A stretch of DNA of 61,414 nt from Candidatus Endomicrobium embiratermitis (GCA_009781315.1 WQYI01000002.1:1-61414); one strand, 5' to 3'; positions 3-20,300 are shown, counted from the stretch's first letter. Notes: generated from the letters alone by a model not told the origin. A program made the numbers and translations.

Positions 3-3000
3 ACCGGAGCGGCACGTGACAGATACAATCAGATAGCCAACACCGCAGGTTTTACGAACGTGCAGTTAAAAGAAAACCAAATCGGAATGTTTGTATCGTT
101 TACGTACAACGGAAAAACAGAAATAATATACTTGTACAAAGATGCCACAACGCTTTTCACGCAATCGGAAATAGAGTTTGCGATTGCGAAGATAAAAGGC
201 GAAGCGTGGGAAATAACGAACCCGACAGCGACAACGTTAGGAGACGCATGGGCAGGATATGATTATTTAAGTAAGAACGGATTCTCCGGACTAAAGGTAT
301 GGCTAGAGTATGACGAAGCTACCGGTAAAGAAGTTATATATTTCACGCATCCTAATTTTAAGACGTCTACCGGCAGAATATATCCGTTTGATAAAGACGG
401 AAATGCGATAGCATTGGACAGATTGTTAAAAATAGCGAAGGGAGAAGCGATAGAGTTGAGCGAGAGCGAGTTAACAGGGGATGCGTTAACGGCGTATAAT
501 CATTTAAAGAACAACGGATTTAGCGGTTTGAAAGTATGGGTAGAATTTGACGAAGCTACCGGTAAAGAAGTTATGTATTTCACGCATCCTAATTTTAAGA
601 CGCAGAACGGCAGAATATATCCGTTTGATAAAGACGGAAATCCGATAGCATTGGACAGATTGTTAAAAACAGCAAAGGGAGAAGCGATAGAGTTGAGCGA
701 AAGCGAATTAACGGGGAACGCGTTAGCTGCGTATAATCATTTAAAGAACAACGGATTTAGCGGATTGAAAGCGTGGGTAGAGTATGACGAAGCAATGCAG
801 AAAGAAGTGATGTATTTTACGCATCCTAATTTTAAGACTCCGAACGGCAGAGTGTATCCGTTTGATAAAGAAGGAAATCCGATAGCATTGGACAGATTGT
901 TAAAGACAGCAAAGGGAGAAGCGATAGAGTTGAGCGAGAGCGAGTTAACCGGGGACGCGTTAGTAGCGTACAATCATTTAAAAAACAATTTCCCCGGAAT
1001 AAAGGCGTATGTAAAGTATGACGAAGAGATCGGTAAAGATGTGATGTATTTCCTTATAGACGGAGTGTTTAAATTTTATCCGTTTGACAAGGACGGCAAA
1101 TTCATACTCGGCGATTATCTTGACAGGAATGGCCAATGGCTTAATAACGAAGTAAAAAGAATATTTTTTGAAAGACTTGACGGCCAAATAGCGGCTGTCA
1201 AATATAATCTTGAAAATCCCGGCTCGAATACAGGAGCATATATACATGTTACTCCGCAAGATGACGCTCGTTTAAAACCTTTAAGCGATCGGGTGAACGA
1301 AATATTGGATTCTTATAGAAACGGGACATTGACAGAGCAAAAATTAAATCAGTTATCGCAGCAGCGTACTGAAAAACAGAGTTACTGGAATGCGGCGAGA
1401 ATCGCTTTGTTGGTCGGTGGCGGTTTGCTTATAATCGGAGCGCTTGTTATAGGCGGATTTACTTTTGCAAAAGCCGCGTCAAGAGTTTTGCTGGCATTTC
1501 CTGCGGTATTAATGGCGCTTGGATTGACCGGAGCACTTTTTGCAATTTTCGGTAATTTTAATAAAGATGTTATTATTCCTGCCCAAACGTCGCTATCAGA
1601 TGAGTTAGTATCTTATGCTGCTATGGAAGCAAAGGTTAAAGATTTAGAACCGATAGTAGAGGATATCCTTGATAAAGACGGAAAAAAAGTTGGTACAAAA
1701 ATAACCAGAGTCGCAGGTCAATGGATGCCCGGACAGGGGATAAGGCAAATAACAAAAGAAGAAGAGGAACAAGGTTACGGAAAAGAAGGGGATTTTATAG
1801 TTCAGTATTATACTGAATATATTATGTATAACGGCGAATACAGCCAGTCGTGGTATGTTGAGTATGACAACGGCGGCGGCAGACAAATTTACGAGTCGTG
1901 GTTCCCGGAAGACATAGATAACTTAATTAAAAAATGGGATACATCTACAATTTCTATAAACGGTCTTTCAACGGATTCAGAAAACGCTGTTCGTAAAGCA
2001 TTGAGTAATGATTTTGGCGGATTGGAATTATACTATATTGCCGATATTATGAGAAATAACTATACAGCGTTCCAAATTGGCAATAATATGAATGTTGTCA
2101 TTGAAGGGACAGGCGCGGAGAGGACAATTTCCGTCTATGCGTCTGACGGCAAGGGCGGATGGACATTAAAAGAAAAAGGCAGATTTAAATTTAACGAAGA
2201 CGGCAGAGGTTATATAACGGGAGACGCTTTATATATAAATCAAAATACGGTAAAGACAAAAGACGGGCAATCGTTCATTTCAAATATAGCGTTTTCATAC
2301 GCCGGACATAAAGATGGATTCAAGCAAAATTTGAATGATCCTGACACAGGCAGATTCTTAAGCTATATATTCGATAATCCTGCGACAGGAAAAGAATACA
2401 AAACAACAATTTTATACGGACAATACGGAGAGCTCGCGTATATTTCAAAAACAATCGGGCTTATGGAAGCTTATAAAGAGGCAGGCAATATCAGAGGTTT
2501 AAGAGATTTACTCTCGGATCCGAATATTAGAAGCGGTATGTTGCTCAGAGAAATAGAAAGAGCGATACAAGACTTGACAGCCCAAGGTGTTACTGAAGGA
2601 GCAGATTCAACTTTTGAACAGATAACGGAATATGTTGACCGCGCGTCTCAACCCGGATATGTGCAGTCAATCCAGTCAGCAAGAGTTGTTGACGGTAGAT
2701 TGAAAGTTAAAAATCAAAACGGAATAGAAGATGACTATATATCAAAGGGTATAGTTTGGGGCGAACCGGCTGACGGTAATGGCGACGTATATACATATTA
2801 TCAGAATTACAAAGATGTAATAAAGAATGCAAAATTGTTGGGAGCAAACACCGTAAGGACGTACAGATTGCCTATTGCTTACGTCAACGGAAAAATTGAC
2901 TGGAATGCTACCGAAGAAATGCTGCGGGCGTTTAAAGACGCCGGCATTACAATTTCAGTGGGCGCAAACGACAGAGATTTGTCTTCGGGAAATCTTGAGG

Positions 3001-6000
3001 AATTTATTAAAAGATTTGATAATAAGAATGATTCTTCAAAAAGATTGGGAGTTGTTCTGCAATATTTAATAGGAAATGAATTTAATTACCATTATATCGA
3101 TCAGCCTGTAAGAGGGTTCGAGGGACAGGGGTGGTTTACTAAACAGCAGTGGTTTGATACTTTGAGCAAGGCGGTAGACGTTGTAAGGGCAAATTCAAAT
3201 ACGATAGTCGGTACTGTCAGCGGCGAAGTGCCTGATGCCGAGCATATACAAAAATATCTTGATTTAGGGCTGGATTCCGTCCAATTGAACGTATATAGAA
3301 GCGGCACCGATTATAATGCGATAACTGAAACCCGTTTGGCGTTTGAAAAGGCTATTTCCGATAACAAAAAAGGCAAAATGCCGTATTTAGGTTTTGCGGA
3401 AATAGGGGCAAATCAAACCGATGCTTACGGCGCTTCAATTATTGCCGAGACTTTATTAAAACATCCTGAGGTCGGGTTTTATTATTTTCAATTAAATGAT
3501 AAAACCGGCGATATTCTGGGAGATTTTGGTTTGCTCGATAAAAACGGAAAACAGTTTGCGCCTTTTGGAATATTGAGAAATGCGTTTAGACAGCTTCCTG
3601 ATTCCGGCAAAAATATATTAGGGAACGCGATCGGCGTGGTTTCTGCGCAGCCGTCAACATCTTTAGCCAATGTGCCAAACGATGCTTATAAGTTTTCGTC
3701 AATGTATTTAACCAATATGACAAGGAGCTCGCTTGGCGATATGGTTCCTTCGTCGGTAATGTACTTATCTAACGGAGCTGCAAAGTCTGAGGCTGAATTT
3801 TATCACGAAAGCGGAATGTCCGCTCCCGCACAACAGCAACAGCGGCAGCAATCTGAACCAGCTTATGTGTTTGAAAGCGCACCTCTGACGGGAGAATTGA
3901 GAGCTCAGGATATTTGGAGAGAAATATATAATGATGAAGAGGCATTAAGGGCTTTTGCCGATGTTTATTCCGAAATGTTGGGCGGCTATAGGTTCCAAGG
4001 GAATCTTAACAATATGAGTTTAGAAGAAGCTAATGTCATCCGCTCTATACTGGAATATGATATTACAAGATTTGCGGTAAAAGACGAAGAATTGTTTGGA
4101 AATTTAACCGAAAATCAAATTAAAGAGAAACTTATCGCCGAAGCGAGAGAAATAGCGCAAAATTATAAAGAACTTCATGAGATGGGGTATAAGATAACGA
4201 CAGAAACGGCTACATTGTCGCAAATTTTCCCTAACGGAAAATTGCCTCAAGAAGTCATAGATCAGCTGGAAGGCATAATGGTAAACGGCAGACCTATAAA
4301 TTTGAGCACAGTTCAGTTTGTAGGAGTCAGAAGAACGTCCGCAAAAATGGGCGATGACAATATAATTTATACTATAAGAGGCGATAGCGAACAGAGAAAT
4401 ATAATTGCCATCCAATACGGTTATAACGGAAGAATCGACAGTATAAAAATAAACTACGAGTTCTTGACAAAAGAAGCGAAAAAACAAAACCCCGTGCTGT
4501 ATAGATATTTGGACATAAATTCAAGCCTTAAAGGTTTTGACATTGTTTATGGCAAAAAATACGGATACGAAGTTTCAGGGGACTATGAGTTTGTTGAAAC
4601 CGTTACGGCGGTCGAAGCTTTAGATTCGAAAAATCTCGGAAGAAACGTTATCGAAGATTTTAAGAACAAATTCAGCGAACAGGTAATGGGCAGAGATATT
4701 TACGACGTTATGGGGTTAAACAGAGAAAGAGTTTTTGTCGAGGGAAGCGGCGAGTCTGCCATACTTATTAAGTCTTTAAGTACGCCCAGAATGCAAACAG
4801 GCGACGGCAGGTTTACCCAAAATTCCGGACACAGCAATGAAGTTTACGTATATCCCGACGGTTTTGTGAAAACAAAAGAAATAATCACAAAATACGCCGG
4901 AGTAAACGGAAGTATAGGCGATGTCGTAGTCGTATTGTGGGGATTAAACGTACATCCGCAGGCAGACGGTTCCGTAAAATATTTTACGGAATTAAAAGGC
5001 GAGAGCGGAAATATTGAAAAGAGAGACTCTCCTCTTGGCGTGGAACCGGGGTATTTTGTATTAAAAGACGACGATCACGGCAAATTAAAAGATCCGGAAG
5101 AACTTGTTGTGTTTAAACGATATGTAGGAGCAGACGGCGAATTTAAAGGCGAAATGGGCGTTGAATACGACGTTTATAGACAAAGATTGAAAAAGAATGT
5201 CATATATTCGACAAGCGGAAAATTGCTTGGAGAGCGTTATTTATACGTTCTGGCTCAGGTGATGTCGGGTATCGCAGGAAGCGCTTTGTTGGAAAATGAA
5301 GGCGAATCCGGAATGGAAACGATATATTTTAATCCTGCTAATATGTCGTTTGACCAAGCCGAAAAAGCCGTGTTAAGAGTTTCGCCGGAAGTTGCCGACA
5401 GACTGCTTCCCGGCTGGAATACCGACGAAATTAAAGCTAAATACCCGGAGCTTGACATAAAAACGGAAAACGGCCTTGTGCTTTTTACCACGAAAGACAA
5501 TTATGAATACACTTTTACGACAAGAAGCAGCGCAAAGGACGACGGCGTGGTGCTGCGGGCTTTAGAGAGGTTGAGAGTTCTTTTCGGCGCCGGTTTTATA
5601 GACGGGAAAGAACAGATTGTTAAAACAAAAATTACCGAAAGCGAAGGTATGGCTATCGGTATGAAAAACGAAACCGTAAAAATATACTCCAACGGCAGAA
5701 TGATAAATATTTACGGAGTTAATATTGAGAGTACTTGGTGGAATAGAACTGTTCCTTTCTTAAAATATATCGTGACGGCATTATTTGCGCTCATCGCCGG
5801 TTCTTGGATTGCGGGCAAAATAGCTACCTTCAGTCATAAGAAAAAGACGGACAAAAAAGATAAAAAGAAAAAAGGAGAAATTGGAGGATATAATGACTAC
5901 GAGCCCGGCACGGATAAAACTATAGTTAAAGAATTAATGCTGCAGTTCAGGGATAGTACGGGAAATCCTAAAGAAAGAAACATTAATGACGATTTGATAG

Positions 6001-9000
6001 ACGATATTTTTGTTATTTCAAAAGACGCAGCTTCAAAAAACGAAGCAAGCAGAGTAATAAGCATTATTGAAAGTATTGAAGCGGAGGTTTCTGATCTTGA
6101 ACAACAAAAAATAAACGCAGACAAACTGAAAGACAGAGCGCGCATTGAAAAAAGCATTACTCTTAAAAAAGAAGAATTGACAAATGCAAAACGTCAATTG
6201 CTTAATGTGAAATTAAATGCGGCGGAAAGGTATTTGTTGTCAATATACAAAGAAGACTCTCATATCAATGTCGGAAACTTAAAAGAAGCGCTTGTAAAAG
6301 AGTTTAAAAGCACAATAGGCGTTAGCGCTATTTCGGCTTGGCTTGATGAGAATAAAGAAATAAAAGACGGTCTTTATAAAGGCAAGACTAACGAGCAAAT
6401 AAAAGCCGATATTAACAAAATTATTAAAAATAACAATTTCCGCAATTCTCTGGATATAAAAGAATATCTTGTAAGAGAATATTTAATAAAGCTTGGAAAA
6501 TTCGGTTTTGAGGCAAATAACCCTGATACAATCGACTTGACAATAAACGAGTGGGTGCCTAAAATACGCACTGACTTGGCTCGCGGCTTAAGCATATCCG
6601 AAATTACCATGAAAGAAGTCGGCAGATATATGAACCCTTACCTTGAGCAAATGTACGGAGAAGGCAGAATAAGACATGAATATTCTCTTAAACAAATGTA
6701 TATAAAATACCTGATTGAAAAGAATGCTTTTATTTTTGCCGCCACAAACGGAAATATTAAACATTATATGCTTGAAAATATTTTCAGAGCTATCGAAGGC
6801 GACGAGAAAGCGCGCGAGCAGCTTGCAAACGTTGAAAACACTCTTGAATTAAAAAAATTCAAAAAAGAAGATATTGACGCTAAACTTAAAGATATTAGAG
6901 AAAATTTTTCTGAAAACAACATTTCTCTGTACATTGACAGCATAGTTGATACTTTTGCGCAAATCGTTAAGCTCAACGACGTGGCAGGATTTGGTCCTCT
7001 GAAAATGTCATTTTTGAAACAGCTGAGGAATATGGGCATAATCAGCAATATGCAGGACAGAATAATATATTATGACGTTGAAGACTGGTTTAGAACTCCC
7101 GAGTTTGTAGAAGCTTATGAAACCGGGGATTTAAAACAAAAGCTAAACGAATACATAACAAATCAAGGAAATATAAATAACCGCCTTGAGAGTCTTGCAA
7201 AAAGTGTTCAGGCAAGGGCGTCTGTTATTCAGGCGGCGTATCCCGGTTTCTTTTTATCAGGCAATCTTATTTTAAATGACGGCAGCATAGCCGGAACAAA
7301 TGAATTTTCAAAACGTTTGCTGTTCACACAGGGAAAAGAGCTTAAGCGTTTAGCGGAAGAAGAAAAAGGTAAGGAAGAACAGCATGTAACGGAATTAGTA
7401 AGAAGCATTGAAGATTTCCAAAAAGCATTAAAGGAATACAGCAGTCTTGACGGGAAAAGAGGAGTCAAGAAAACTTTTGCCGATTTGACGGGAGGAAAGG
7501 GCGGCTGGAGAGGGCTGGTTGTTTTTAGTTACATATATTTACCGCAGATTATGGCTCCTTTAAAAGTTGCAGGAATTGCGCTGTCTATAGTAGCTTTTTC
7601 AATTGCCGTCTTGGCTTCTTTCTCAATGCTTTGGCCGGCCATAATATTGGGCGCTACAATAGTGCTTTGGTTATCTGATAAGCCTTTGAATCAACTTTTT
7701 GAAACCTGGGTTGACAGTATACAAAATAAAGCCAACAAAGAGGGCGGGATATACAAGCCGTTGCTGCCTCAAGACAGTAAATTTGTAAAAGCGCAAAAAA
7801 ATCAGGAATATGAACAGCGTAAAATAAGAAACGCGAGAATTTTTGGTGTTGTAACGGCTGTTGTAAAACTTTTATGGAATGTGTTTTTATTCGGTTTTGT
7901 GGCAGTTCCGTTTTTAACCGGCACAACGGCTGTTTGGCCGGTAATAGGCGCTTTGGGCTTAATCATCGGACCTTTGGCAATACCGCTTATGATTATCGCT
8001 CCTATAATATTATTCTCTTTATTGGACGCTTTTGGAATAAAAGATATTCTTTTTTCCGTAATAGGATATGTAAAAGCAAAATCTATAGGCGTGTATAGCA
8101 TCAAGAAGTTTGGGCAGCTGTCGGATTTGCAAGAAGGTCCTGACGGCAAAAAGGATACGAAATTTCATTTAGCGCAAGAGAGAGTCAAACTGTATCTTAT
8201 TCCTCAGCTTACCACCGACGAATACGGCTTTAAACGTCCTTTAACTGAAGACGAAAAAAATATTGCCGCCATGAAAATGCATAATTTAATTTACTTAAGA
8301 TTGAGAATTGACGATAAAATAAGTATGGAAGAGTTAAGAGAATACTTGTATAAAGTTATTGATGAAAACGGACAAGAAAGATATATAGGCGTTGACGGGC
8401 TTAAGTCTTTTATTGATGATGCAAAAATTTGGAATAATTCCGCTAATTATCTTGAAATGCCTAAATATTCAAACGGAAATAATTTCACCATAATAGAACC
8501 GAATATTGCCGTCGCTCCCAGAAATGAAGAAGCGGCGGATAGATTAAACCATTTTTATTCAACGCTGTTTATGGATTTGGAAAACACGCAAGTTTGGGAA
8601 AATTTAGCGCAGTTTAGCGGCGCGAATCCGACAAATGAAGAAGTCGTGATATATCCTTGGTGGGATAAAGACGGTATAAAAGCATCCGACTACGACGGGC
8701 TTTTAACTTTGCAAAAAGACGGATACGTAAGACTTAATGAATTTATAAAAGATTATCCTGATGAATGGGAAAATTTTGTTGAAAGATTATATGCCGGCAA
8801 AATCAAAGATATTGAAGGAAATCCCATAGAAATAACCGCACAATTGAGAGATAGTTTGTTGAGTTTATTACAGCCTGCAAATAAAGGCGTAAATATTGCC
8901 AAAGGCGATAGTAAAAAAGGTATTGAAGGCATCGGCATGGAACTTACTCCGCTTGTCCAGCAAATAAGGCTTTGGGCGTCTTTCAGGTACCAGCCAGCGT

Positions 9001-12000
9001 CAAGAACTATCCGCGGCAATATGAATTACAGAAACACATATGACTTTTTTGCAAGAGTTAATTATCCTACTGCCCAAAGCTTGGATGTAGACCAAACCGG
9101 ATATGATAGGGAAATAGCTAGAAAAGTCGGCGATAAATTTGAATATACTATACAGCAGTCTCCGTTTTTTGATAATAAAACTGTCGCGGAAACTCTTGAG
9201 GAATATAAAAAATTTATTAGCGGGAATTTAAAAGACTCTGAGGCGCTAAAGTTAATCAAATCGATACAAGACCACCTTAAGTTTCCGTTTTTTCAAAATA
9301 AAACTTCCGTGGAAATTCTTGAGGTATATAAAAAATTTATTAGTGGGAATTTAAAAGACTCCGAGGTGCAAGAGTTAATCAAATTGATAAAAGATCACCT
9401 TAATGACGAAGTTAATCTTAAAAGAGCGCAGCAATATTACGATATGACTATGATGCCTGCTTTGTATCCCGGGTTGAAAATATTATATGACAAGAATGGA
9501 CCGTTTGGACCAGGTCAAGATGTCGGTTTAGTAGAATTAGATTTAGATGAAAACGGCAGGGTGCAATTTGATGAATACGGAGTAGTAAAATTAAAACAAA
9601 CTGCCGTAATTCATCCTACCGATGATTTACAGTCATTAATTGCTATGGGCAAAACTACCGCGCAAAATTCGATATTCAGACTTGTCCGCGGCGAAGTTGT
9701 GCAGATGATGGATATGAATCAGGATATAGATTTTGAAGAAACGTTCAAACAGCCGGGTCTGATGAATATGTTTTTCAGAGACCCTTCTCTTGTAATTTTA
9801 GGCTACCCCGAAAGGATTTTTACGGATAAATCAACCGTTGGAGCGGCTCATGCGTTCGGCGACCATACTTTCGCGGCGTTTACTCAAAGAGTTGCAGATG
9901 TTTTGGGTGTTAGATTTCATTACGGACATCCCGACTGGGTGCGCAAAACGGCGTTTACCACTATAGGTTTAGTAATGCCCGTAAATGTCAACGAAGACAT
10001 AGAAGGCGCGTATAAAGCAATTGTGAACGGCGGTCATGTTGAATTTGTGGAAAGTGTCCGCGCAGCCAAGGGAAGAGAAGGTGTATTGCAAGGTTTCTGG
10101 GGAATTAACAATAAATTTGGTTCCGGTGGTATGGAGCAAGCTATGACAAGACATGTCGCAAGGCTTAACGTTGCGGACAATTGGTTTTCAAGAGCCTCTA
10201 TTCACGCGCTGGCAGGCATTGGTTTTTATTTAAAGCAATTGATTGTGCCGCTTACCATAATGACGGTTTTACTTATAACAAATTTATTGGGACTCAGCGC
10301 TTTTGTTGCAGTTCCGTCCGTTATACTATTCGGCTTCCTGGCATTATTGCAAAGCCAGTCTATTACTTTGCCGGGTCTGGTCAATATGATAGTTGAGAAA
10401 GGTTTTGTCAAAGGCATGCTGGCTTTCTTGAAGACAATTATTTCAACGACAATAGCTTACGGAGCTATAGATACAAACGGAGTTTATCAAGGCGTAAAAG
10501 CAGGGCTTACCGGAAAAGCGTCTTATGTTGCCACCGGAAGAATTCTTTGGAAACATCTTGCTCTTTATGAAGCCGGTAAAGAAAACAGCGAGACTCCCGC
10601 GTCTGTTTATGCTTGGGGCGCTAAAGCAAGAAATATAATAACTATAATGAATTTCTTGATAATAGGCTCAATAGTCCTTTGGTTCAATGTGGGCATAATT
10701 TGGTCTCTGCCGATGTTTATTATTCCGATAATGTCTGTTGTAGGGCAAGCAATATTAAACCCTGCCGGCACTCCTTTTCAAACGAAAGTTGACGATTGGA
10801 ATAAAACGACTAAAGAAGATGTTAAAATATCAAACGATAAGTTTTTAAATTATAAAGTATTTGTGCCTATTGCCTGGATTGTCGGGGCTGTCGTGGCGAT
10901 AATTTTCTTCCCCGCGTTAACTGCCTTTATTGTTTTCGGTATGGCCGCTTTATATATTGGCGCAGGTAAAATAATTCCTTTCTTGTTCGGTAAAATATTT
11001 AGAGATACTGGCGCAAAAATTAAAGAAGATTATGAAAATTGGATAGGCATGCATCCATTCTGGAACGGCGTATTCAGCTTTATTACAATGCCTTTATTAG
11101 GATATTCGCATTTCAATGACTTTAAAAACGGCGTTAAAGGGAATGTTGACTTTAGAGAGTCGGTTAATTTGATGCTAAACATGGCACTTATGTGGTTTAC
11201 AATGTGGTTTATTTCGCCTTTAGCTTTTATTTTTACTGAAATTGCTTATTTCTGGAATGTTAAAATAAGGGGACGCAGCGCTTCTGATTTTGAACAAAAA
11301 CAGAAAGCAAAAGCAGATAAAACTGTAGAAGAAGCAGATAAAAGTAAACAAAAATCTGAGGATGAATATCAAAAATATTTAGAATTACAAGAAACTGATG
11401 AGAAGTCTGCTAATAAGTCATTGGCGGAATCTAAAAAAGCCGCTAAGAAAGCCGAAAGCCTTTACAAAAGGGCGGAAAAAGAAAGACTCAGCGCAAGCAG
11501 AACATTTTTCGGAGCTGTCAGAGAAAATGACCATAAGCCCGGATTTTGGGCTGCAATTGTTATAACGGTTTCAGTATTTCTTGCGGTTGGAATTGCGATC
11601 GGCGGGTTCGCCGCCGTTGCGATAATCGGCATTGTATCCTTTCCTGTTGCTACCGCTATATATTTGCTTCTGACTAATCTAAAAGAAGACATAGGAGAAG
11701 CAAAGAAAAAAGCTGAAGAAGCAGGGAAAAAATATGAAGAAGCAAAGAAAAAAGCTGAAGAAGCAAGGAAAAAATATGAAGAAGCAAAGGAAAAATCTGA
11801 CAAGGAAAAATTTGAGCTTGCAATATCGGATGTATTGAAAGCGGAAGTTGATGTATATAAATACGGCATGCCGTTAGCAAAGGGCAATGCAATTGTCCAA
11901 TTGCAGACGAATTTAGCTAAAGCTATATCCGATATTCAGATAAATGACGAAGATTCCGAAACAATTATTAAAGCAAAAATAGACGCTTTATCTAATGCGA

Positions 12001-15000
12001 TAAAAGAATTAAGCAAATTAAATAAAGACGCATATATCCGCGGGATACTTAAAACTCTCCGCGCAAAAGTAGAAGCGTTAAATAGAAAAGGTGACAAGGA
12101 AAAATTTGATCTTGCAATGGTGGATATATTTAAAGCGGAAGTTGACGTATATAAATACAGCAGACCGTTAGCAGAAGGCGACTCTGACGCCATTGCCCGA
12201 TTGCAGGCAAATTTAACTAAAGCTATATCCGATATTCAGATAAATGACAAAGATTCTAGAGAAGTTATTCAAGCAAAAATAAGCGCTATATCTAATGCGG
12301 CAAAAGAATTAAACAAATTAAATAAAGACGCATATATCCTGCAGATACTCGAAACTCTAACTTATATAGTAGCTTCTTATCAATTAGGTAAAGATGGCGT
12401 TGTAAATCTCAGAGTTACTGATACGGTAATGGAAGCGGTTGTAAACAGGCTTCAGGCTGAATTTGATGTTGTTGCTTCAGGCAATGCGAGCCAGGTTACT
12501 TTGACATTAGAAGCACCTGCCTTCGTAGAACAAGCTGAAGCCGCCGAAGATAAATCTGTTGCGGCTCTTAAAGAAGCCCTTACAACTTATGATAGCAGCG
12601 CGAAAACAATGGATGATGTTAGAAATCTGCAGCAAACAATGGCGGCTGTTAAAATTAACCCGAAAGACGATGTGAATATAGGCATCGCAAGAGTTAATGC
12701 TTTGGCAGACGCTATGTCAAGAATGAGATATGAAGTTGACGGAAGAGAGTACGGCTTTGACGAAATAGGCGTATTAACCTGGAAACTGCTGACTTTAAAC
12801 GGTTTGAGGTTAAGAAAACTTTCCGGTGTTTCGGATAAACTTGAATTAGGAAAAAATTGGCAGCCTATTGCCGAAGACGAAACTTTTCCGTTAGCTCAAA
12901 ATCTTATGATTTCTTATAATGAGTTAAAAGAGTATATTAAGGACAAAGAAGCTGTTAGTATGATTTATTTGTGGCTTAACGGCGGCATAGGCGCCTCCGT
13001 TAAAGGAAGAGAAGCTGTAATTTACGCCTTGAAATCTTGGAAAGACGCATTAGCCAAAGCTATTGAGAAAAAAGATAGAATCGCTGTAGAGAGATTATCT
13101 GCAATAGCCAAAGGAAATGATATTTTTGGACAGGGCTTGACTGACGGGGAAAATATATACGGCTTTGCAAAGATAAATCCATTTGATTTCTATGACAGAC
13201 AAGCGGACGGATCTTTAAAAGCTAAAGCAGCCGACGCAGAAGGAAAAATAGAAATAACAATAAACGGCACAATCGTGAAAATTAAAGCCCCGGTTCTTAC
13301 CGGAAAAGCCACGGATACTCCCTTAGTTGACGCAATAAACGGAGCATTTGAGTCTATAATAGCATTAAAAGCGCAAGAATTTATGTATCATGCTAACGCG
13401 GGAGTAGTCCAAATAGTAGGCGCCGGCGACGAAGCTAATGCAAAGGATATTCAGGATTCTACCGCAGGCGGAATAAATAATCCCGAATTGATAGGTCCTC
13501 GTCTTGGGCAAGATATTGCGAACGGAATAACAAATTCCGATAGGATATATCCTTGGAAGATAACAAAAAATGCAACCGGAGATAAAGAATATTCCTTGGA
13601 TTTTGACAGTAAAATGACACACGCAAGCCATGGTCCGGTATTTTTTACAATGGCAAGTCGTTTAATTGAAGCATACAAACAATATATGAAGGCAAACGGC
13701 TTATCTTTCAAAGATATGACTCCTGAACAAATGAAAGAGGCTATGAGATATTTCGGTGATATTGTTTTTGCAAACGGCGATGGTATAAATTCAGGTCCTA
13801 AAGGAAGAAAAGGCGCGATATCAATGTATGCGGTTCCGAGAAGAGCTATAGATGCAAAAGGCGGAGCATTTGTTTTGCTTCAAGAAGCTTTTATATATTT
13901 ATTGGAACTTGCTAATTTTACAGGTCCCATGACAAAAGTATTTGAAAAATTCGGACTAAAAGACGAATACGGTAAAAATCCGAATCCGTTCAATACAAAT
14001 ACTTCTCAATGGGGCGCTTTTGAAGTCGGGGCGTTATTTGCGGAATTAACAACCATTATAGGTTATGAGAAAACATTTGAACTTATGGCTCCTCCTGTAA
14101 TTTTTGTGGAATCTGCCGACGGGACAAAAGTTGATAAAAACGAATGGGCTATAGGGCAAGTTATACTCTGGACGAGTATGAATTTAGAAAAATTAAGAAA
14201 GGGAGAAAATCCGGAATTTACAAAAAAACAGGCAGAAGAAGTAAATAATTTAATGAATAATTTGCTTGGCGAAAACCAGCCTTTTGCGACGCTTGTTGTG
14301 GCAGATGATAACCAAAGAGAAGAAATAGGATTTACTCCGTATAAATTCGTAACGGATATCGATTTATTCTTGTTCGGCGGTGAAGTTAGAGAAGGTCAAT
14401 GGCTGCCATATGACAAAGTAAACCCATTGTCGTTTAGTTTTAGCGGCGATATGTCGAATTATTTGTTTGCTCCGTATTATTATTGGACTTATTTAAATAC
14501 TTCCGAATTAAACAATATAAATCAAGTTGGAGAATTTCAGATATCTAATTTAGCTCTGAAAGGTGATATAGAACTTATCAATAATAGCGGTGCGGCATTT
14601 GATTTGAATTCTCAATCTATTGAAGCAGCCGGTTATGGCAGTTACTTTGAAGCCGGAAATATAGTATTCGTGCAGCAACCGGTAGAGAAACCTGCCCCGT
14701 TTGATTTGAATCCTGAAGTCGGTTACGACGGTTACTTTAATCCCGGGAATATACTTACAAATGTTTCAATAACAATTAGCGTAGACGGAAGAGAAATTTC
14801 GGAAGTCAAAATTGACGGTAAGGTTGTAGATCCTATTGCTGCGTCTAAATCTATTGACGTGACACCTGAACAGCAGCCAGATGTTATATGGACAATGAAT
14901 ATAAACGATTTGACTGAAAAGGATAGGTCACGGCTTTCACGACTGTCGTCTAAAACCGAGATAAATGAAGGACACGATGCCATACAGTTTACCGTAAAGG

Positions 15001-17273
15001 CTGAAAACTATGATCTGTTTAAGACAGAACATGATAAGATTGTAAAAGCAGCAGAAAAGGCGAAAGTAAAAGCAGCTGAAAGAACAAGAATTGCGACGGA
15101 GAAAAAAGCGAATATAGAAGCGGAAAAAATTACTTTGCTTGTAGGTTACGTAAGTAGCGGTACAGAATACAGCAGCTTGCCGGAATTTATTCAGAGAATG
15201 CCTTTAAATACTCTTAAGGCAAGAATAAGCCGCTTAGAAAGAATCGGCTATACTGATAAAAATATAGATAATCTGACAGCTAAAGAATTTAACCGTATTA
15301 ATAAAGAGGATGCTTCAATAGCCCTCAGACGCGATGTCGCTATGAGCACAAAAGGCGCTATTACCGGAGAAGCCGCTCACAATACGTCGGTAGCTATTGT
15401 TAACAGTTTCGGCGGTCGCGAATATATTGTTTCCGAAGATACTTATAGAGGCAGTGAATCAAGATTGTTCTTGGGTACTGGAAAGAATTTACAAAAAGCT
15501 CGGGATTTAGCTGCCGCGCAAAGAAAAGCCGGTTATGCGGGCGTTGTTGTAACAAGAGCTGTTGTAAGACCCAAAACCGGCGCAATCAGAAATGAAGCAA
15601 CCGGGGAATTTGAATATAGAAACGTCAGAATTATGGCTAATACTACTTTCGAATACCAAGGCAAAACTTTTGTAGCCGAACATTATATTGTTGAAAATGA
15701 AGACGGAACTCACGAAATTCAATTATATTTAAGAGGAAAAGACAGCGCAGGCACAAAAGAGGCTGCGGCGATTACAAACGATAACTTTATTACAACCGCT
15801 TTCTACGCTTTAGCCGCCAATATAAACGGCAACCCTGTATTGCAGGGAAATCAAAAAGGTTTTGGCATCGGAAAAGTCGCGATGGTTGACACTATAAGTG
15901 AAAATAATATTGATGTCAATTCTATTGATGGTTTTAGCGGAATAGTTAATTTCAGAAAATATTTAGATACCAATGAACTGGGTATTACTGGTGAAAGCGA
16001 TATAAATGTAATTAATAACGCAATTGATACCGAAAGAATACATAATAACGCTAAACCGGAACAATGGAGTTCTTGCGTTATTCCCGCGAGATTTACTGAA
16101 AATAGCATGATAAAAAGGATGAACACTGTCGTGAATGCGAATGAAGCCACGGGGTTAATAGTTAATGCCGAAGGCAGAATTACCGTTAAAAACAATGTTG
16201 TAGAAGTGAATCCTGAATTTATAAATGCTGTCTTTAATCTCAAAGCCCAGGGTATTAAAGTCACGCTTGTTGTTGACGCTTCCGATACCAATTTTGAAGA
16301 TGTAATTCAAAAACTTTTTGAACTTGGTTTTGACGGAGTCAGCCTTGATGTTTCCAAACTGAATAATGCCGGTATAAAAGACGCTTTGGCAGCTTTATCT
16401 AAACTCTCAAAGAATAATAAGATACCTGCAAGGAATAACACTATAAAAACGAATGACAGACAAGCGGATTTCATTGAAACAGAGAAACTTGCAAACGGCG
16501 CGATGATTATAGGCGATTATAAGAGAGACGCAAAAATAGACCCGAAAGTAACCCGGCAGGATAAATCTTTCAGAAAGGGCCGCCGTACCGCAGTTGAAAG
16601 CAAACAGATAACGGCGTTTACTTTTGGCAGCTTAAATGCAAGCGACCTCAAGGCTATTCTTGATAATCCCGGAGTTTCCAGGCAGGATTTGAAAGCGTTT
16701 TTAGAAAATTCAAAAGCTAATCCTGTAATAATGAATTTGGTTCTTAAGAAGATATTTTCAGATTCTCTTGAGCCTTTGAGAGATGCCGGGCAAGAAGCAT
16801 TGATTATATCCGAAGCTAAAGGCTTTATAAAAGGCGCCGCGGCAAATTATATGGAAAAACTGTGGCTTAACGCTCTCGGAATGTCGTTAGAAAGATATGT
16901 TCAGGTTATGAATAATAAAGATAATGCTCAAAATGCCAGAGTCAGGGAGTATATAGGAGAAGCTTTATTAGACTGGCAGGGCGCTGCAAATCAAGAAAAT
17001 ATGAATCGTTTTGTTGAAGCTCTCAGAGACTCCTCAGACGCGGATTTCGCTAATCTTACTATAAACGATATAGCAAAATTAATGGATGATTCTTTTGACG
17101 AGGTTGTCAATAAAGGCGAATTTACGGTTGCCGGCGTAAAGAATAAAACAGCTATCGCGGCTGCGTCGACTCTTACGGCTGCGGCAATGAGTAAAGTTGA
17201 TTTTAAAGAATTTGCAAAACGTTCTACCATAACTTCGGCAAATGCAATAAGAAGCGTCTTGTCGGCGGCATAA
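3..17273 (+). CDS. Giant glucan synthase (GT48-like) fused to a glycosidase-like domain, 5' partial
   Basis: The frame is open to the left edge, so the N-terminus lies outside the window; residues are numbered from the GTG at nt 60. Order: 79-residue repeats (about 1-360), two membrane segments (443-505), a TIM-barrel glycosidase-like domain (about 887-1177, putative catalytic E1007 in GNE and E1114 in FAEIG), one membrane segment (about 1895-1925), a membrane cluster (2484-2668), a catalytic core (about 2807-3378), more membrane segments (3380-3737), coiled coils (3740-3815 and about 3875-3915), 98-residue repeats, and about 1,600 unassigned residues. The core and the following segments follow the family GT48 callose/FKS synthases motif by motif: LNEFIKDYPDEWENF, IRLWASFRYQ..SRTIRG.MNY (2969), RGEVVQMMDMNQD (3210), HYGHPDW (3287), SGGMEQAMTR (3356), YVATGR and NPAGTPFQTKVDDW (3567). 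I infer an inner-membrane enzyme polymerising UDP-glucose to a beta-1,3-glucan-like product. The substrate is unproven; other GT-A synthases such as cellulose synthase lack these motifs. Confidence 0.85.
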   Translation, partial: TGAARDRYNQIANTAGFTNVQLKENQIGMFVSFTYNGKTEIIYLYKDATTLFTQSEIEFAIAKIKGEAWEITNPTATTLGDAWAGYDYLSKNGFSGLKVWLEYDEATGKEVIYFTHPNFKTSTGRIYPFDKDGNAIALDRLLKIAKGEAIELSESELTGDALTAYNHLKNNGFSGLKVWVEFDEATGKEVMYFTHPNFKTQNGRIYPFDKDGNPIALDRLLKTAKGEAIELSESELTGNALAAYNHLKNNGFSGLKAWVEYDEAMQKEVMYFTHPNFKTPNGRVYPFDKEGNPIALDRLLKTAKGEAIELSESELTGDALVAYNHLKNNFPGIKAYVKYDEEIGKDVMYFLIDGVFKFYPFDKDGKFILGDYLDRNGQWLNNEVKRIFFERLDGQIAAVKYNLENPGSNTGAYIHVTPQDDARLKPLSDRVNEILDSYRNGTLTEQKLNQLSQQRTEKQSYWNAARIALLVGGGLLIIGALVIGGFTFAKAASRVLLAFPAVLMALGLTGALFAIFGNFNKDVIIPAQTSLSDELVSYAAMEAKVKDLEPIVEDILDKDGKKVGTKITRVAGQWMPGQGIRQITKEEEEQGYGKEGDFIVQYYTEYIMYNGEYSQSWYVEYDNGGGRQIYESWFPEDIDNLIKKWDTSTISINGLSTDSENAVRKALSNDFGGLELYYIADIMRNNYTAFQIGNNMNVVIEGTGAERTISVYASDGKGGWTLKEKGRFKFNEDGRGYITGDALYINQNTVKTKDGQSFISNIAFSYAGHKDGFKQNLNDPDTGRFLSYIFDNPATGKEYKTTILYGQYGELAYISKTIGLMEAYKEAGNIRGLRDLLSDPNIRSGMLLREIERAIQDLTAQGVTEGADSTFEQITEYVDRASQPGYVQSIQSARVVDGRLKVKNQNGIEDDYISKGIVWGEPADGNGDVYTYYQNYKDVIKNAKLLGANTVRTYRLPIAYVNGKIDWNATEEMLRAFKDAGITISVGANDRDLSSGNLEEFIKRFDNKNDSSKRLGVVLQYLIGNEFNYHYIDQPVRGFEGQGWFTKQQWFDTLSKAVDVVRANSNTIVGTVSGEVPDAEHIQKYLDLGLDSVQLNVYRSGTDYNAITETRLAFEKAISDNKKGKMPYLGFAEIGANQTDAYGASIIAETLLKHPEVGFYYFQLNDKTGDILGDFGLLDKNGKQFAPFGILRNAFRQLPDSGKNILGNAIGVVSAQPSTSLANVPNDAYKFSSMYLTNMTRSSLGDMVPSSVMYLSNGAAKSEAEFYHESGMSAPAQQQQRQQSEPAYVFESAPLTGELRAQDIWREIYNDEEALRAFADVYSEMLGGYRFQGNLNNMSLEEANVIRSILEYDITRFAVKDEELFGNLTENQIKEKLIAEAREIAQNYKELHEMGYKITTETATLSQIFPNGKLPQEVIDQLEGIMVNGRPINLSTVQFVGVRRTSAKMGDDNIIYTIRGDSEQRNIIAIQYGYNGRIDSIKINYEFLTKEAKKQNPVLYRYLDINSSLKGFDIVYGKKYGYEVSGDYEFVETVTAVEALDSKNLGRNVIEDFKNKFSEQVMGRDIYDVMGLNRERVFVEGSGESAILIKSLSTPRMQTGDGRFTQNSGHSNEVYVYPDGFVKTKEIITKYAGVNGSIGDVVVVLWGLNVHPQADGSVKYFTELKGESGNIEKRDSPLGVEPGYFVLKDDDHGKLKDPEELVVFKRYVGADGEFKGEMGVEYDVYRQRLKKNVIYSTSGKLLGERYLYVLAQVMSGIAGSALLENEGESGMETIYFNPANMSFDQAEKAVLRVSPEVADRLLPGWNTDEIKAKYPELDIKTENGLVLFTTKDNYEYTFTTRSSAKDDGVVLRALERLRVLFGAGFIDGKEQIVKTKITESEGMAIGMKNETVKIYSNGRMINIYGVNIESTWWNRTVPFLKYIVTALFALIAGSWIAGKIATFSHKKKTDKKDKKKKGEIGGYNDYEPGTDKTIVKELMLQFRDSTGNPKERNINDDLIDDIFVISKDAASKNEASRVISIIESIEAEVSDLEQQKINADKLKDRARIEKSITLKKEELTNAKRQLLNVKLNAAERYLLSIYKEDSHINVGNLKEALVKEFKSTIGVSAISAWLDENKEIKDGLYKGKTNEQIKADINKIIKNNNFRNSLDIKEYLVREYLIKLGKFGFEANNPDTIDLTINEWVPKIRTDLARGLSISEITMKEVGRYMNPYLEQMYGEGRIRHEYSLKQMYIKYLIEKNAFIFAATNGNIKHYMLENIFRAIEGDEKAREQLANVENTLELKKFKKEDIDAKLKDIRENFSENNISLYIDSIVDTFAQIVKLNDVAGFGPLKMSFLKQLRNMGIISNMQDRIIYYDVEDWFRTPEFVEAYETGDLKQKLNEYITNQGNINNRLESLAKSVQARASVIQAAYPGFFLSGNLILNDGSIAGTNEFSKRLLFTQGKELKRLAEEEKGKEEQHVTELVRSIEDFQKALKEYSSLDGKRGVKKTFADLTGGKGGWRGLVVFSYIYLPQIMAPLKVAGIALSIVAFSIAVLASFSMLWPAIILGATIVLWLSDKPLNQLFETWVDSIQNKANKEGGIYKPLLPQDSKFVKAQKNQEYEQRKIRNARIFGVVTAVVKLLWNVFLFGFVAVPFLTGTTAVWPVIGALGLIIGPLAIPLMIIAPIILFSLLDAFGIKDILFSVIGYVKAKSIGVYSIKKFGQLSDLQEGPDGKKDTKFHLAQERVKLYLIPQLTTDEYGFKRPLTEDEKNIAAMKMHNLIYLRLRIDDKISMEELREYLYKVIDENGQERYIGVDGLKSFIDDAKIWNNSANYLEMPKYSNGNNFTIIEPNIAVAPRNEEAADRLNHFYSTLFMDLENTQVWENLAQFSGANPTNEEVVIYPWWDKDGIKASDYDGLLTLQKDGYVRLNEFIKDYPDEWENFVERLYAGKIKDIEGNPIEITAQLRDSLLSLLQPANKGVNIAKGDSKKGIEGIGMELTPLVQQIRLWASFRYQPASRTIRGNMNYRNTYDFFARVNYPTAQSLDVDQTGYDREIARKVGDKFEYTIQQSPFFDNKTVAETLEEYKKFISGNLKDSEALKLIKSIQDHLKFPFFQNKTSVEILEVYKKFISGNLKDSEVQELIKLIKDHLNDEVNLKRAQQYYDMTMMPALYPGLKILYDKNGPFGPGQDVGLVELDLDENGRVQFDEYGVVKLKQTAVIHPTDDLQSLIAMGKTTAQNSIFRLVRGEVVQMMDMNQDIDFEETFKQPGLMNMFFRDPSLVILGYPERIFTDKSTVGAAHAFGDHTFAAFTQRVADVLGVRFHYGHPDWVRKTAFTTIGLVMPVNVNEDIEGAYKAIVNGGHVEFVESVRAAKGREGVLQGFWGINNKFGSGGMEQAMTRHVARLNVADNWFSRASIHALAGIGFYLKQLIVPLTIMTVLLITNLLGLSAFVAVPSVILFGFLALLQSQSITLPGLVNMIVEKGFVKGMLAFLKTIISTTIAYGAIDTNGVYQGVKAGLTGKASYVATGRILWKHLALYEAGKENSETPASVYAWGAKARNIITIMNFLIIGSIVLWFNVGIIWSLPMFIIPIMSVVGQAILNPAGTPFQTKVDDWNKTTKEDVKISNDKFLNYKVFVPIAWIVGAVVAIIFFPALTAFIVFGMAALYIGAGKIIPFLFGKIFRDTGAKIKEDYENWIGMHPFWNGVFSFITMPLLGYSHFNDFKNGVKGNVDFRESVNLMLNMALMWFTMWFISPLAFIFTEIAYFWNVKIRGRSASDFEQKQKAKADKTVEEADKSKQKSEDEYQKYLELQETDEKSANKSLAESKKAAKKAESLYKRAEKERLSASRTFFGAVRENDHKPGFWAAIVITVSVFLAVGIAIGGFAAVAIIGIVSFPVATAIYLLLTNLKEDIGEAKKKAEEAGKKYEEAKKKAEEARKKYEEAKEKSDKEKFELAISDVLKAEVDVYKYGMPLAKGNAIVQLQTNLAKAISDIQINDEDSETIIKAKIDALSNAIKELSKLNKDAYIRGILKTLRAKVEALNRKGDKEKFDLAMVDIFKAEVDVYKYSRPLAEGDSDAIARLQANLTKAISDIQINDKDSREVIQAKISAISNAAKELNKLNKDAYILQILETLTYIVASYQLGKDGVVNLRVTDTVMEAVVNRLQAEFDVVASGNASQVTLTLEAPAFVEQAEAAEDKSVAALKEALTTYDSSAKTMDDVRNLQQTMAAVKINPKDDVNIGIARVNALADAMSRMRYEVDGREYGFDEIGVLTWKLLTLNGLRLRKLSGVSDKLELGKNWQPIAEDETFPLAQNLMISYNELKEYIKDKEAVSMIYLWLNGGIGASVKGREAVIYALKSWKDALAKAIEKKDRIAVERLSAIAKGNDIFGQGLTDGENIYGFAKINPFDFYDRQADGSLKAKAADAEGKIEITINGTIVKIKAPVLTGKATDTPLVDAINGAFESIIALKAQEFMYHANAGVVQIVGAGDEANAKDIQDSTAGGINNPELIGPRLGQDIANGITNSDRIYPWKITKNATGDKEYSLDFDSKMTHASHGPVFFTMASRLIEAYKQYMKANGLSFKDMTPEQMKEAMRYFGDIVFANGDGINSGPKGRKGAISMYAVPRRAIDAKGGAFVLLQEAFIYLLELANFTGPMTKVFEKFGLKDEYGKNPNPFNTNTSQWGAFEVGALFAELTTIIGYEKTFELMAPPVIFVESADGTKVDKNEWAIGQVILWTSMNLEKLRKGENPEFTKKQAEEVNNLMNNLLGENQPFATLVVADDNQREEIGFTPYKFVTDIDLFLFGGEVREGQWLPYDKVNPLSFSFSGDMSNYLFAPYYYWTYLNTSELNNINQVGEFQISNLALKGDIELINNSGAAFDLNSQSIEAAGYGSYFEAGNIVFVQQPVEKPAPFDLNPEVGYDGYFNPGNILTNVSITISVDGREISEVKIDGKVVDPIAASKSIDVTPEQQPDVIWTMNINDLTEKDRSRLSRLSSKTEINEGHDAIQFTVKAENYDLFKTEHDKIVKAAEKAKVKAAERTRIATEKKANIEAEKITLLVGYVSSGTEYSSLPEFIQRMPLNTLKARISRLERIGYTDKNIDNLTAKEFNRINKEDASIALRRDVAMSTKGAITGEAAHNTSVAIVNSFGGREYIVSEDTYRGSESRLFLGTGKNLQKARDLAAAQRKAGYAGVVVTRAVVRPKTGAIRNEATGEFEYRNVRIMANTTFEYQGKTFVAEHYIVENEDGTHEIQLYLRGKDSAGTKEAAAITNDNFITTAFYALAANINGNPVLQGNQKGFGIGKVAMVDTISENNIDVNSIDGFSGIVNFRKYLDTNELGITGESDINVINNAIDTERIHNNAKPEQWSSCVIPARFTENSMIKRMNTVVNANEATGLIVNAEGRITVKNNVVEVNPEFINAVFNLKAQGIKVTLVVDASDTNFEDVIQKLFELGFDGVSLDVSKLNNAGIKDALAALSKLSKNNKIPARNNTIKTNDRQADFIETEKLANGAMIIGDYKRDAKIDPKVTRQDKSFRKGRRTAVESKQITAFTFGSLNASDLKAILDNPGVSRQDLKAFLENSKANPVIMNLVLKKIFSDSLEPLRDAGQEALIISEAKGFIKGAAANYMEKLWLNALGMSLERYVQVMNNKDNAQNARVREYIGEALLDWQGAANQENMNRFVEALRDSSDADFANLTINDIAKLMDDSFDEVVNKGEFTVAGVKNKTAIAAASTLTAAAMSKVDFKEFAKRSTITSANAIRSVLSAA
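258..1131 (+). repeat. 79-residue (237 bp) coding tandem repeats
   Basis: Unit starts (YDYL/YNHL) fall at 258, 495, 732 and 969, exactly 237 bp apart. Landmarks in each unit are GFSGLK, KEVMYFTHPNFKT, YPFDKDGN, LDRLLK and ELSESELTG. Copies 1-3 are nearly identical in DNA; copy 4 drifts (FPGIKAYVKY, no THPNFK). A diverged copy precedes 258, so the array continues beyond the left edge. The fold is unknown to me; an extracytoplasmic spacer or binding module is a guess. Confidence 0.9.
9162..9407 (+). repeat. 41-residue in-frame duplication inside the glucan synthase core
   Basis: Two 123 bp copies begin PFF at 9162 and 9285 and share NKT, EYKKFISGNLKDSE (VYKKF in copy 2) and an LIK..DHL ending. 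They lie between the SRTIRG/MNY motif and the YPGLKILYD segment of the GT48-like core, where family members have a variable linker. The frame is kept. Confidence 0.88.
11698..11798 (+). repeat. 14-residue coiled-coil repeats
   Basis: Alanine/lysine/glutamate-rich heptads (KKAEEA, KKYEEA) recur every 42 bp directly after a membrane segment pair in the giant protein. They predict a rigid helix leading out of the membrane into the next domain. Confidence 0.8.
11799..12386 (+). repeat. 98-residue tandem duplication
   Basis: Two copies of a helical segment begin DKEKFE/DKEKFD at about 11799 and 12093 (294 bp apart). They share KAEVDVYKY, KAISDIQIND, AKI.A.SNA and ELNKLNKDAYI. A recent duplication in the soluble part after the coiled coil. 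Confidence 0.85.
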
Positions 17274-17336
17274 TTTGAAAAGAAGTATTTCACATGCAAA
17301 CAGTTTTCACGCTGTACATAGTTTGAGGTGAAAATT

Positions 17337-20300
17337 ATGTTTATAAGTAAAAAAATTCTAAAAGCATTGTCGGTAGTTATTACAGTGTGTTTTTGTAATG
17401 CTTTTATATTTACAGACTTCGCCAGAGCTTTGTCGGATCCGGCGAAGTCTGTATCTTTTAATATAGATTTTTTAGACGGCATTCACCCTGATTTTTATGT
17501 AGGTTCTGACGGTAAAAACAGTAAAGTCTTTATAGTACAGGATCTTCACGGCGATAAACACGTACAAAAAAATATCAGCGATATAATAGAATATTTAAGC
17601 GAAAATAATAATATTAACGAAATATTGCTTGAAGGCGCGGCGGGACGCATAAACTACAATTGGCTTACAGGGTTAAACGATAAGCACAAAAACGCCGTTT
17701 TAAACGATTTATTGTCCGCTTCGCTTCTTTCCGGAGCGGAATACTACGCTTTATCTAACGCTAAAGAAAACAAATTAAAAGGTTTGGAAAACGAATACCT
17801 GCATTCTTCAAATATAAAACGGCTGCAGGATATACAAAATATTCAACCCCAGATTAAACAAGAACTTTCTTTAATGAAGTCGGCGATTAACGCAAGGCAG
17901 AAAAAAGTTTATTCTTCTGAAAATAAAAAATTGCTGAATTTTGAAGAAAAGTATTTAAACGGCAAACGCGGCGCTAAGGATTTTTACGGCTATATTATCG
18001 CAAGAGCAAGTAAAATAAACGATGAAAAAATCGCAGAAGACTTAAAAGTTTTAAATAAAGCGCTAAAAACATTTGAAATTCCCGCCAAATTGCAAACAGA
18101 TTTGGTTAATAAAGAAATTGAAAGCCTTATAAAAAAGTTAAAAAACGAATTGCCTTATAAAGCTTACGTCAAAATAACAGATAAAACAAAGAATTTTTCC
18201 GATGAGCATATTACGTATACGGTATTAAATGAAATACTTAAAGAAAATTATATTAATGAGTATAATAATTTAAGGCGATATTTATCTTATTATACCGAGC
18301 AGCGCAATATAGATAAAACGGAACTGATAAAAGCCGAGGAATATATAATTAAGGAGTTGTATAATTATAATTCATCGGGCAATTCCGAAAGAGCTTTGGT
18401 CGCGTTCAGCCGAGCGTTTAAACATTTTGAAAAATATTTTCTTGCCGAGGCGACGAATTTTGATTACGATTACATAAACCAATTCGGCGTGGACGCGTTT
18501 ATCGGGTTATACTCTGAAAAATTTAATACGAATATAGCAGCCATAAAATCAAATAAAGACATTTATGAAAAATATCATACCGTAAATATTATAAGGAATA
18601 TCTTTTTTGCGGAAAAAATTGAAGAAAGTTTAAATAACCATAATGGAAAAGTTGTCGCGGTTATGGGCGGGTTTCACAGCGACGGCGTAGGGAAAATTCT
18701 AAAAAGTAAAAATATTACTTACGAAGTAGTTACTCCTAGTTTATTTCAAACATCGTCAAATGCCAAAGACGTTTACTTAAAACATTTAAAAAACAGCGTA
18801 GACAGCCAAACGTTAGCGTTACGAATATATCTGGAGCGTAACGATACGGAGCAGATGAAAGAACTTTTTCAGGTTAAATACGCGGAACTTCTTGCCAGTC
18901 ACGGATTAAACAGAGCTTTATCCGAATTAAACAGCTGGCTGAATATTATAAGCAATGTTACTGAAGACGATATAGCCGAGGCAACAGGAAACAGACCCGA
19001 AAATTTTGCAAAAATCCAAGACACGTCGGTATCATTAAATTCCGACGGAAGCGTAAAAATAGAATTTACTTCAATTTTAAACGGCAAACAGGAGAAAGTT
19101 AATTTTAATATTAACGACGGAACACCGCGAGGCGGTTATGCCTCTTTAGCAGGCTGGGCAACGCAAAAAATTACGAAGTTTGCGGCTTTTTGGGAATGGA
19201 TATATATGCTGCCGTTTTCAAGTTTTGCATTCGGTTCCAAAACTTTAAACAAAGTATTAAGCTCAAAATTAGATTCTGATATTACCGTAGAAAAGAGTTC
19301 CGCGTTTGACAAAATATTAGACATTACTTCCGTATTCTTTTTGTTCGGCATATTTATTTTTAGCCCGCCTATGGCCGTCGCGGCTTACGTTTTAATGAGG
19401 GCGGCATTATTTTCAAGCTTGCATAAGGTTTATTACGGTGATATAAAGCAGCATGTAAAGCTTTTCTTTTTAGGCATAGTGTTTGCAGTGCCGCTTATCG
19501 GCAACGGGGCTCACTATGCTTATAATGAGTCTGCAAGACAACCCGCAAGTATAATAACGCCAAGCGCGATGTCGCGCGGAAGTTTTAGCGTAGATATTCT
19601 TATAGAGCTTATAGACAAATTTCAAAACGAAAGCCCTAAAGAGGTTAGAGAAAGCGATGTTTTGAATGATGAATTTTCAACTATAGTGCTGGAAACAGTA
19701 AAGCATGCAATCCCAAAAATAAAGACAGAAGACGACTTAATGCTGGCTTTTGAAATGCTGGCATTTTTAGTACAGTCAAAAACATGGCTGTCGGCGTCTA
19801 CGGATTCGTTAAGCACAATAGGGCCGTACCAATTGAAAGACCGAAACACTTCCAGTTACGAACGTTCATGGCTTAATACGGAAGACGCAGAAACGGCAAT
19901 TGCCGAAAAATTAAATTTTCTGATAGAAGATGAGAGCAGTAAACAATTCGGAAATAAAAACAAAAAAAGCAATATATATTTGTTTAAGAATATAGAAGCG
20001 TTGTATTTCCTTTATTTCGCAAGAAAAAAAGAAAAATTAAAAATCTATATTCCGGAAGGCAAAGATATCGGGTATATCAGCGGATATCAAAACAGTAATA
20101 ACAGAAACAGCGTTGTAGAGCGTACAGACTTGCTAAACGCGGACAAAATATTTTTTAAAACAGACGGTATTGACGATGTTTTTAGAGAAATGGACTTTGT
20201 TTTAGAACAATATAATGCAAATAATATGTCTTTAGAAGGAAAAGAAGTGTTTTTTGAGCTTAACAGTATAGAAAGGCTTACCGACGGGCAAAGGGATAAA

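Follow-up and report, generated by a model that had tools for sequence, protein, structure and literature searches.

The window, by which we mean the whole 61,414-base stretch of DNA analyzed, is the first part of a 212,061-base contig (G000:C2:1-61414) from a 1.9-Mb MAG that is 99.97% complete and that we place in the phylum Omnitrophota from two named relatives (L004 and L005). It carries a giant open reading frame (ORF) on the + strand, nucleotides (nts) 3 to 17273, which encodes a multidomain membrane protein of at least 5756 amino acids and has zero internal stops. Because the contig begins there, the ORF is truncated and open at its 5' end, so the GTG at nt 60 is not necessarily the start codon. 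The true start may thus differ from the position at which an earlier note on this DNA had begun its residue numbering.

All features described below are on the same strand. Reading the translation directly, we found repeats of ~80 amino acids (..GEAIELSESELTG.ALAAYNHLKNNGFSGLKAW..) at nts 60 to 1080; weak Pfam matches in these N-terminal repeats (LHH, pYEATS, and similar families) were disregarded, as none had a stretch that passed independently. Next come a putative GH2-like TIM barrel, clan A-like (nts 2700 to 3647), and hydrophobic clusters that hydropathy resolves into about five to six transmembrane segments (nts 7539 to 8066). The core of a GT48 (1,3-beta-glucan synthase family) domain occupies nts 8541 to 10799, further hydrophobic clusters with about nine segments span nts 10206 to 11681, and a predicted UDP-glucose-pyrophosphorylase-like (UDPGP, PF01704) domain lies at nts 12759 to 14582. 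The GT48 core is one part of a multidomain giant protein. The earlier note had described membrane clusters around the core and no break in base composition; both descriptions hold, the G+C content being flat at 0.37 to 0.39 throughout the region. The pyrophosphorylase-like and GH2-like domains of the same chain were absent from that note.

Membership of the GT48 family

The earlier note had staked its reading of the core as a bacterial GT48 on a profile match and on a predicted structure with the FKS GT-A core, and both checks came out in its favor. The Pfam-A model Glucan_synthase (PF02364) matched the ORF at an E value of 4.6e-45 and 154.6 bits, far over the curated cutoff of 37.2 bits. Searched with phmmer, yeast FKS1 and the window ORF matched at 9.6e-22, and FKS1/GSC2 were the sole matches in the PDB. 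The relatives L019 and L005 matched PF02364 more strongly still (1e-67 and 1.6e-63), the best relative reaching 229.5 bits. We built one profile from the four closest sequences (A1) and another from ten Omnitrophota relatives (A2). A1 aligned without a gap in coverage across residues 818 to 1316 of FKS1. A2 matched the window's GT48 core at 1.5e-269 and FKS1 at 1.4e-56 over ~500 residues, but the cellulose synthase BcsA at just 0.04. A profile made without the window recovered the window at 6e-166 and FKS1 at 9e-61, and none of 200 shuffled regions matched the family profile at an E value of ≤10.

FKS1 outscores BcsA by over 50 orders of magnitude in this profile search, which rules out a GT2 cellulose or curdlan synthase. 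The QRIRW of BcsA aligns to a K-[FI]-x-x-G segment common to FKS1 and the bacterial proteins, and the GT2-type QRxRW is absent. All of the motifs that had been quoted as an FKS/CalS-type series were found in the frame of the ORF, in order, and once each: LNEFIKDYPDEWENF (nts 8733 to 8777), IRLWASFRYQ (8964 to 8993), SRTIRG (9000 to 9017), RGEVVQMMDMNQD (9687 to 9725), FHYGHPDW (9915 to 9938), NEDI (9990 to 10001), KGREGVLQ (10068 to 10091), GGMEQAMTR (10125 to 10151), YVATGR (10524 to 10541; similar to the YISTGR of FKS1 and within the second set of hydrophobic clusters), and NPAGTPFQTKVDDW (10758 to 10799). To judge from these sequence comparisons, the region encodes a true bacterial member of GT48 and a homolog of FKS1 and callose synthase. 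The module had also been called complete; this stands for the catalytic and translocation core, whereas the N-terminal accessory domain of FKS1 (FKS1_dom1) gave no Pfam match anywhere in the ORF.

An AlphaFold2 model of the GT48 region, made from bacterial sequences alone, had a mean pLDDT of 51 and a pTM of 0.54. With this model, Foldseek returned 13 significant PDB matches, all of them FKS1 or FKS2 (E values of 2e-12 to 8e-9; probability 1.00 over about 700 to 1190 columns), and the cellulose and hyaluronan synthases that ranked next fell short of significance. In FKS1, 6 transmembrane segments precede the GT domain and 11 follow it (PMC12715860). Because the confidence of the model is low, we take the fold match as corroboration, not proof, of a predicted FKS-like fold, with a GT-A core between transmembrane bundles.

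The bacterial protein thus resembles fungal FKS1/FKS2 and plant callose synthases in PF02364, catalytic residues, a GT domain between two membrane blocks, and predicted fold, and also in having D-x-N in place of DxD, an ED motif, and K-x-x-x-G in place of QxxRW. It differs in its identity to FKS1 (~30% for the bacterial sequences), in the missing match to FKS1_dom1, and in its length of 5756 or more amino acids, over which GT48 is fused with a GH2-like and a UGPase-like domain. To our knowledge, no Rho1 is known in bacteria, which is a further difference.

Domains fused to the GT48 core

The putative pyrophosphorylase domain contains the motifs LNGGIG (nts 12975 to 13007), HG (13623 to 13637), NGDGINSG (13767 to 13796), IDAKGG (13848 to 13865), and FNTNT (13989 to 14003). 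By itself the window's domain fell below Pfam recognition, and a direct PF01704 search of its own genome gave no match, as was also the case for the control genomes. Its relatives exceeded the PF01704 cutoff, with E values of 1.5e-6 to 3.9e-9, among them the one in G307 (L023). Stand-alone relatives of 479 to 508 amino acids matched at 3.9e-9 to 7.3e-7 and, in three genomes (L075, L076, and L078), adjoin a phosphoglucomutase/phosphomannomutase gene. A pooled 13-row profile reached UGPases in the PDB at 2.5e-15 and UDP-GlcNAc pyrophosphorylase at just 0.004. The top four PDB matches of the predicted structure (pLDDT of 69) were UGPases, with the human, yeast, and Arabidopsis enzymes leading (E values of 2.8e-6 to 2e-5; probability 1.00), and the fifth was AGX1, a UDP-GlcNAc pyrophosphorylase. 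Relatives and profiles therefore point to a UDP-glucose-pyrophosphorylase-like domain of the eukaryotic type. Like the eukaryotic enzyme, it has the motif order LNGGxG, GHG, N-D, KGG, and FNTN, and nearly all profile and fold matches of window-type domains in the PDB are UGPases; unlike it, the window-type domain is only weakly similar, has an altered version of the classical GTxMGxxGPK, and is fused to a glucan synthase.

The order GT48 and then UGPase-like within one ORF occurs in G000 (the genome of the window), G307 (two copies), G313 (two copies), and G314; within the stretches examined, most GT48-bearing giant ORFs show no UGPase-like domain. Since FKS1 uses UDP-glucose as its substrate (PMC12715860), a fused UGPase makes chemical sense. 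Ordinary NTP-transferase-family proteins are also present in the genome, and therefore the fused domain would supply UDP-glucose locally without necessarily being its sole source.

The putative identity of the N-terminal barrel comes from a relative. The barrel of L020 matches PF02836 (GH2 TIM barrel) at 2.6e-8, and the window's stretch, 31% identical to it, is by itself below Pfam recognition. The window's translation contains a GNE motif (nts 3069 to 3095) and FAEIG (3393 to 3419), the latter holding the candidate nucleophile of a GH2-like barrel. The barrel is N-terminal to GT48 in the window and follows GT48 in L020. No GH17 partner was found in the source genome.

In pseudomonads, GH17-GT2 fusions, which are NdvB-like cyclic beta-glucan synthases, also join a processive beta-glucan synthase to a glycoside hydrolase barrel in one bacterial chain, but they have GT2 and not GT48, GH17 and not a GH2-like barrel, and no pyrophosphorylase, and they are far smaller (PMC10237404). 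We regard this likeness as one of analogy, not homology.

Catalytic residues and proposed working

We mapped onto the bacterial sequences the catalytic and donor-binding residues reported for FKS1 (PMC12715860), namely, Y849, E851, K1082, N1085, D1102-x-N1104, E1221, and D1222 (FKS1 numbering), and, in addition to these, K1261. In the family alignment, E851, K1082, D1102, E1221, and D1222 are conserved in every row having residues there, N1104 is conserved except in two distant rows, and K1261 is conserved in 18 of 20 rows. In the window, alignment with FKS1 places the donor site at nts 9642 to 9725, with a GK that corresponds to K1082, an alanine at N1085, and D-M-N at the D1102-x-N1104 site; NEDI supplies the catalytic ED motif (E1221-D1222), which is invariant among all relatives examined. 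Apart from the alanine at N1085 and an asparagine at Y849, the mapped residues are intact in the window copy.

We consider it probable that this GT48 is a membrane-embedded, inverting, processive glucan synthase in a giant membrane protein, the fused domains of which supply UDP-glucose and process the glucan. The synthase activity, direction of export, in-chain substrate supply, and role of the GH domain that we infer would be as follows. The C-terminal UDPGP-like domain would convert UTP and glucose-1-phosphate into UDP-glucose on the cytoplasmic side. The GT48 domain would take the UDP-glucose at its K1082/D-x-N/ED-type site and add glucose to the growing chain, which would exit, as it does in FKS1, through the bundle of flanking transmembrane segments. 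Outside, the N-terminally located GH2-like TIM barrel would trim, transfer, or anchor the glucan. The product would be a surface or holdfast polymer and is most likely beta-1,3-glucan, as we infer for the linkage.

A processive synthase of the GT48 fold could instead make another linkage or use another sugar, giving a mixed-linkage, 1,4-, or 1,6-glucan or a polymer from a non-glucose UDP-sugar. In diverged Omnitrophota sequences, N1085 is replaced by H or G and Y849 by N, A, or F, two of them also match the GT2 Pfam model Glyco_trans_2_3, and the UDPGP fold includes UDP-GlcNAc pyrophosphorylase, as the AGX1 match illustrates. However, the set closest to the window (L004, L005, and L019) retains all nine mapped residues, including every donor-site residue of FKS1, and UGPases are far ahead of UDP-GlcNAc pyrophosphorylase in sequence. 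We think a different product unlikely.

The two substitutions in the window copy could also mean that its GT48 lacks synthase activity, being either degenerate or reused as a structural element of a giant protein for adhesion or the cell surface; an earlier paper interpreted giant ORFs of Omnitrophota as adhesins or predation factors (PMC10066038). Against this, the window copy has kept its acidic residues along with K1082, K1261, and the ED motif, the ORF is free of stops, and the invariant columns of the family coincide with the catalytic residues, so that loss of activity appears quite improbable.

Distribution, origin, and significance

The search for relatives of this GT48 covered the same phylum. 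PF02364 matched in 11 of 341 Omnitrophota genomes, five of which exceeded the cutoff, and the A2 profile found GT48 domains, strong or diverged, in 21 of the 341 genomes, which belong to 12 of the 100 genera. Relatives are also carried by two other named MAGs of the phylum (L004 and L005). These domains are always within large ORFs, mostly of thousands of residues, the short ones being cut by contig ends. A scan of the genome collection with short exact peptides, which is insensitive to distant GT48 elsewhere, found just these two named MAGs as close relatives, both Omnitrophota. No relatives were found in plasmids, phages, or IMG/VR, and we rejected mobile spread on that basis. Because GT48 occurs in 21 of 341 genomes, all within large, mostly giant ORFs, it is part of the biology of the Omnitrophota lineage, neither contamination nor a stray transfer. 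The many relatives in the phylum, together with the retained FKS1 catalytic residues, support the bacterial GT48 that the earlier note had proposed. GT48 has been described almost only from eukaryotes, but recent acquisition from one, or eukaryotic DNA contaminating the MAG, is extremely improbable and was rejected given the spread of the domain across the phylum, its location in bacterial ORFs that lack introns, run to thousands of residues, and are uniform in G+C, and the divergence of the bacterial sequences, which form several deep clades and are only ~30% identical to FKS1.

Maximum-likelihood trees of GT48 included one eukaryotic sequence (yeast FKS1) and had long branches and open forks. 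In the unrooted tree, FKS1 is sister to the group of the window, L019, L004, and L005 (support of 91/93), apart from other Omnitrophota. When BcsA was used as the root, the group of G228, G161, and G162 split off first, and FKS1 fell within the Omnitrophota diversity (forks of 91/85 and 90/87). With moderate support and one eukaryote sampled, this apparent placement of FKS1 among Omnitrophota sequences is a lead only. The tree argues against recent transfer from eukaryotes and is compatible with a bacterial origin or an ancient transfer. Possible, if doubtful, is a larger scenario in which GT48 arose or radiated within the Omnitrophota line of bacteria, eukaryotic FKS and callose synthases would descend from such a bacterial enzyme, and Omnitrophota would retain it in single-chain factories that produce UDP-glucose, polymerize it, export the glucan, and remodel it outside.

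Fungi build their cell walls with GT48 enzymes, which echinocandins target, and plants make callose with them. We know of no explanation for the origin of the family. An algal survey treats it in plants, fungi, and green algae only. We found no earlier report of a bacterial GT48 in the open-access literature; databases such as CAZy and InterPro may already hold unremarked bacterial entries. The giant ORFs of Omnitrophota are reported to have few annotated domains and poorly understood functions; those described share with ours the phylum, the size class, and transmembrane segments, and differ in that the paper makes no mention of glucan or GT48 (PMC10066038).

What our results support as new is a subfamily of GT48 in bacteria that is built into giant proteins along with a pyrophosphorylase-like domain. 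With several deep clades, the bacterial sequences are the first outgroups inside the family and make the origin of GT48 testable. They also open to study in prokaryotes a mechanism for which large eukaryotic complexes have so far been the only system. For the Omnitrophota, giant proteins of obscure role gain a proposed biochemical function, which would be the synthesis of a surface glucan with a built-in supply of substrate.

Large ORFs downstream of the glucan synthase gene

The glucan synthase gene is followed on the + strand of the window by two consecutive, secreted-looking large ORFs, of 1862 aa (17328-22916) and 1569 aa (22916-27625), for which a Pfam search returned no matches. Compared by eye, the two resemble each other over their full lengths, with likeness at the N terminus in a DLH...EGA...GGFH region and at the C terminus in a PLP-enzyme-like region (NSLQKLH/CSLHKLH). 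They are probably paralogues.

GT48 ORFs at related loci

At relative locus L004 (JAKQPK010000029.1), the GT48 ORF (11012-22105) continues in the same frame through a DUF218 domain and a long TPR array. In a distant Omnitrophota family, the ORF carrying GT48 (L022, G228:C17, 5225-18346) has a borderline GH76-like match at its N terminus. Upstream of it lies an ORF of 1307 aa that contains an outer-membrane efflux (OEP/TolC) domain and is a possible export partner.

Additional UGPase-like domains

The window's genome has a second UGPase-like domain (L084, G000:C18:22379-24190), within another giant ORF (5387 aa) that has no GT48 match. At relative locus L023, two UGPase-like domains (11745-13439 and 13761-15617) lie in tandem C-terminal of GT48, and genome G313 also has such a pair. 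This duplication suggests either a dosage effect or a regulatory role for one copy.
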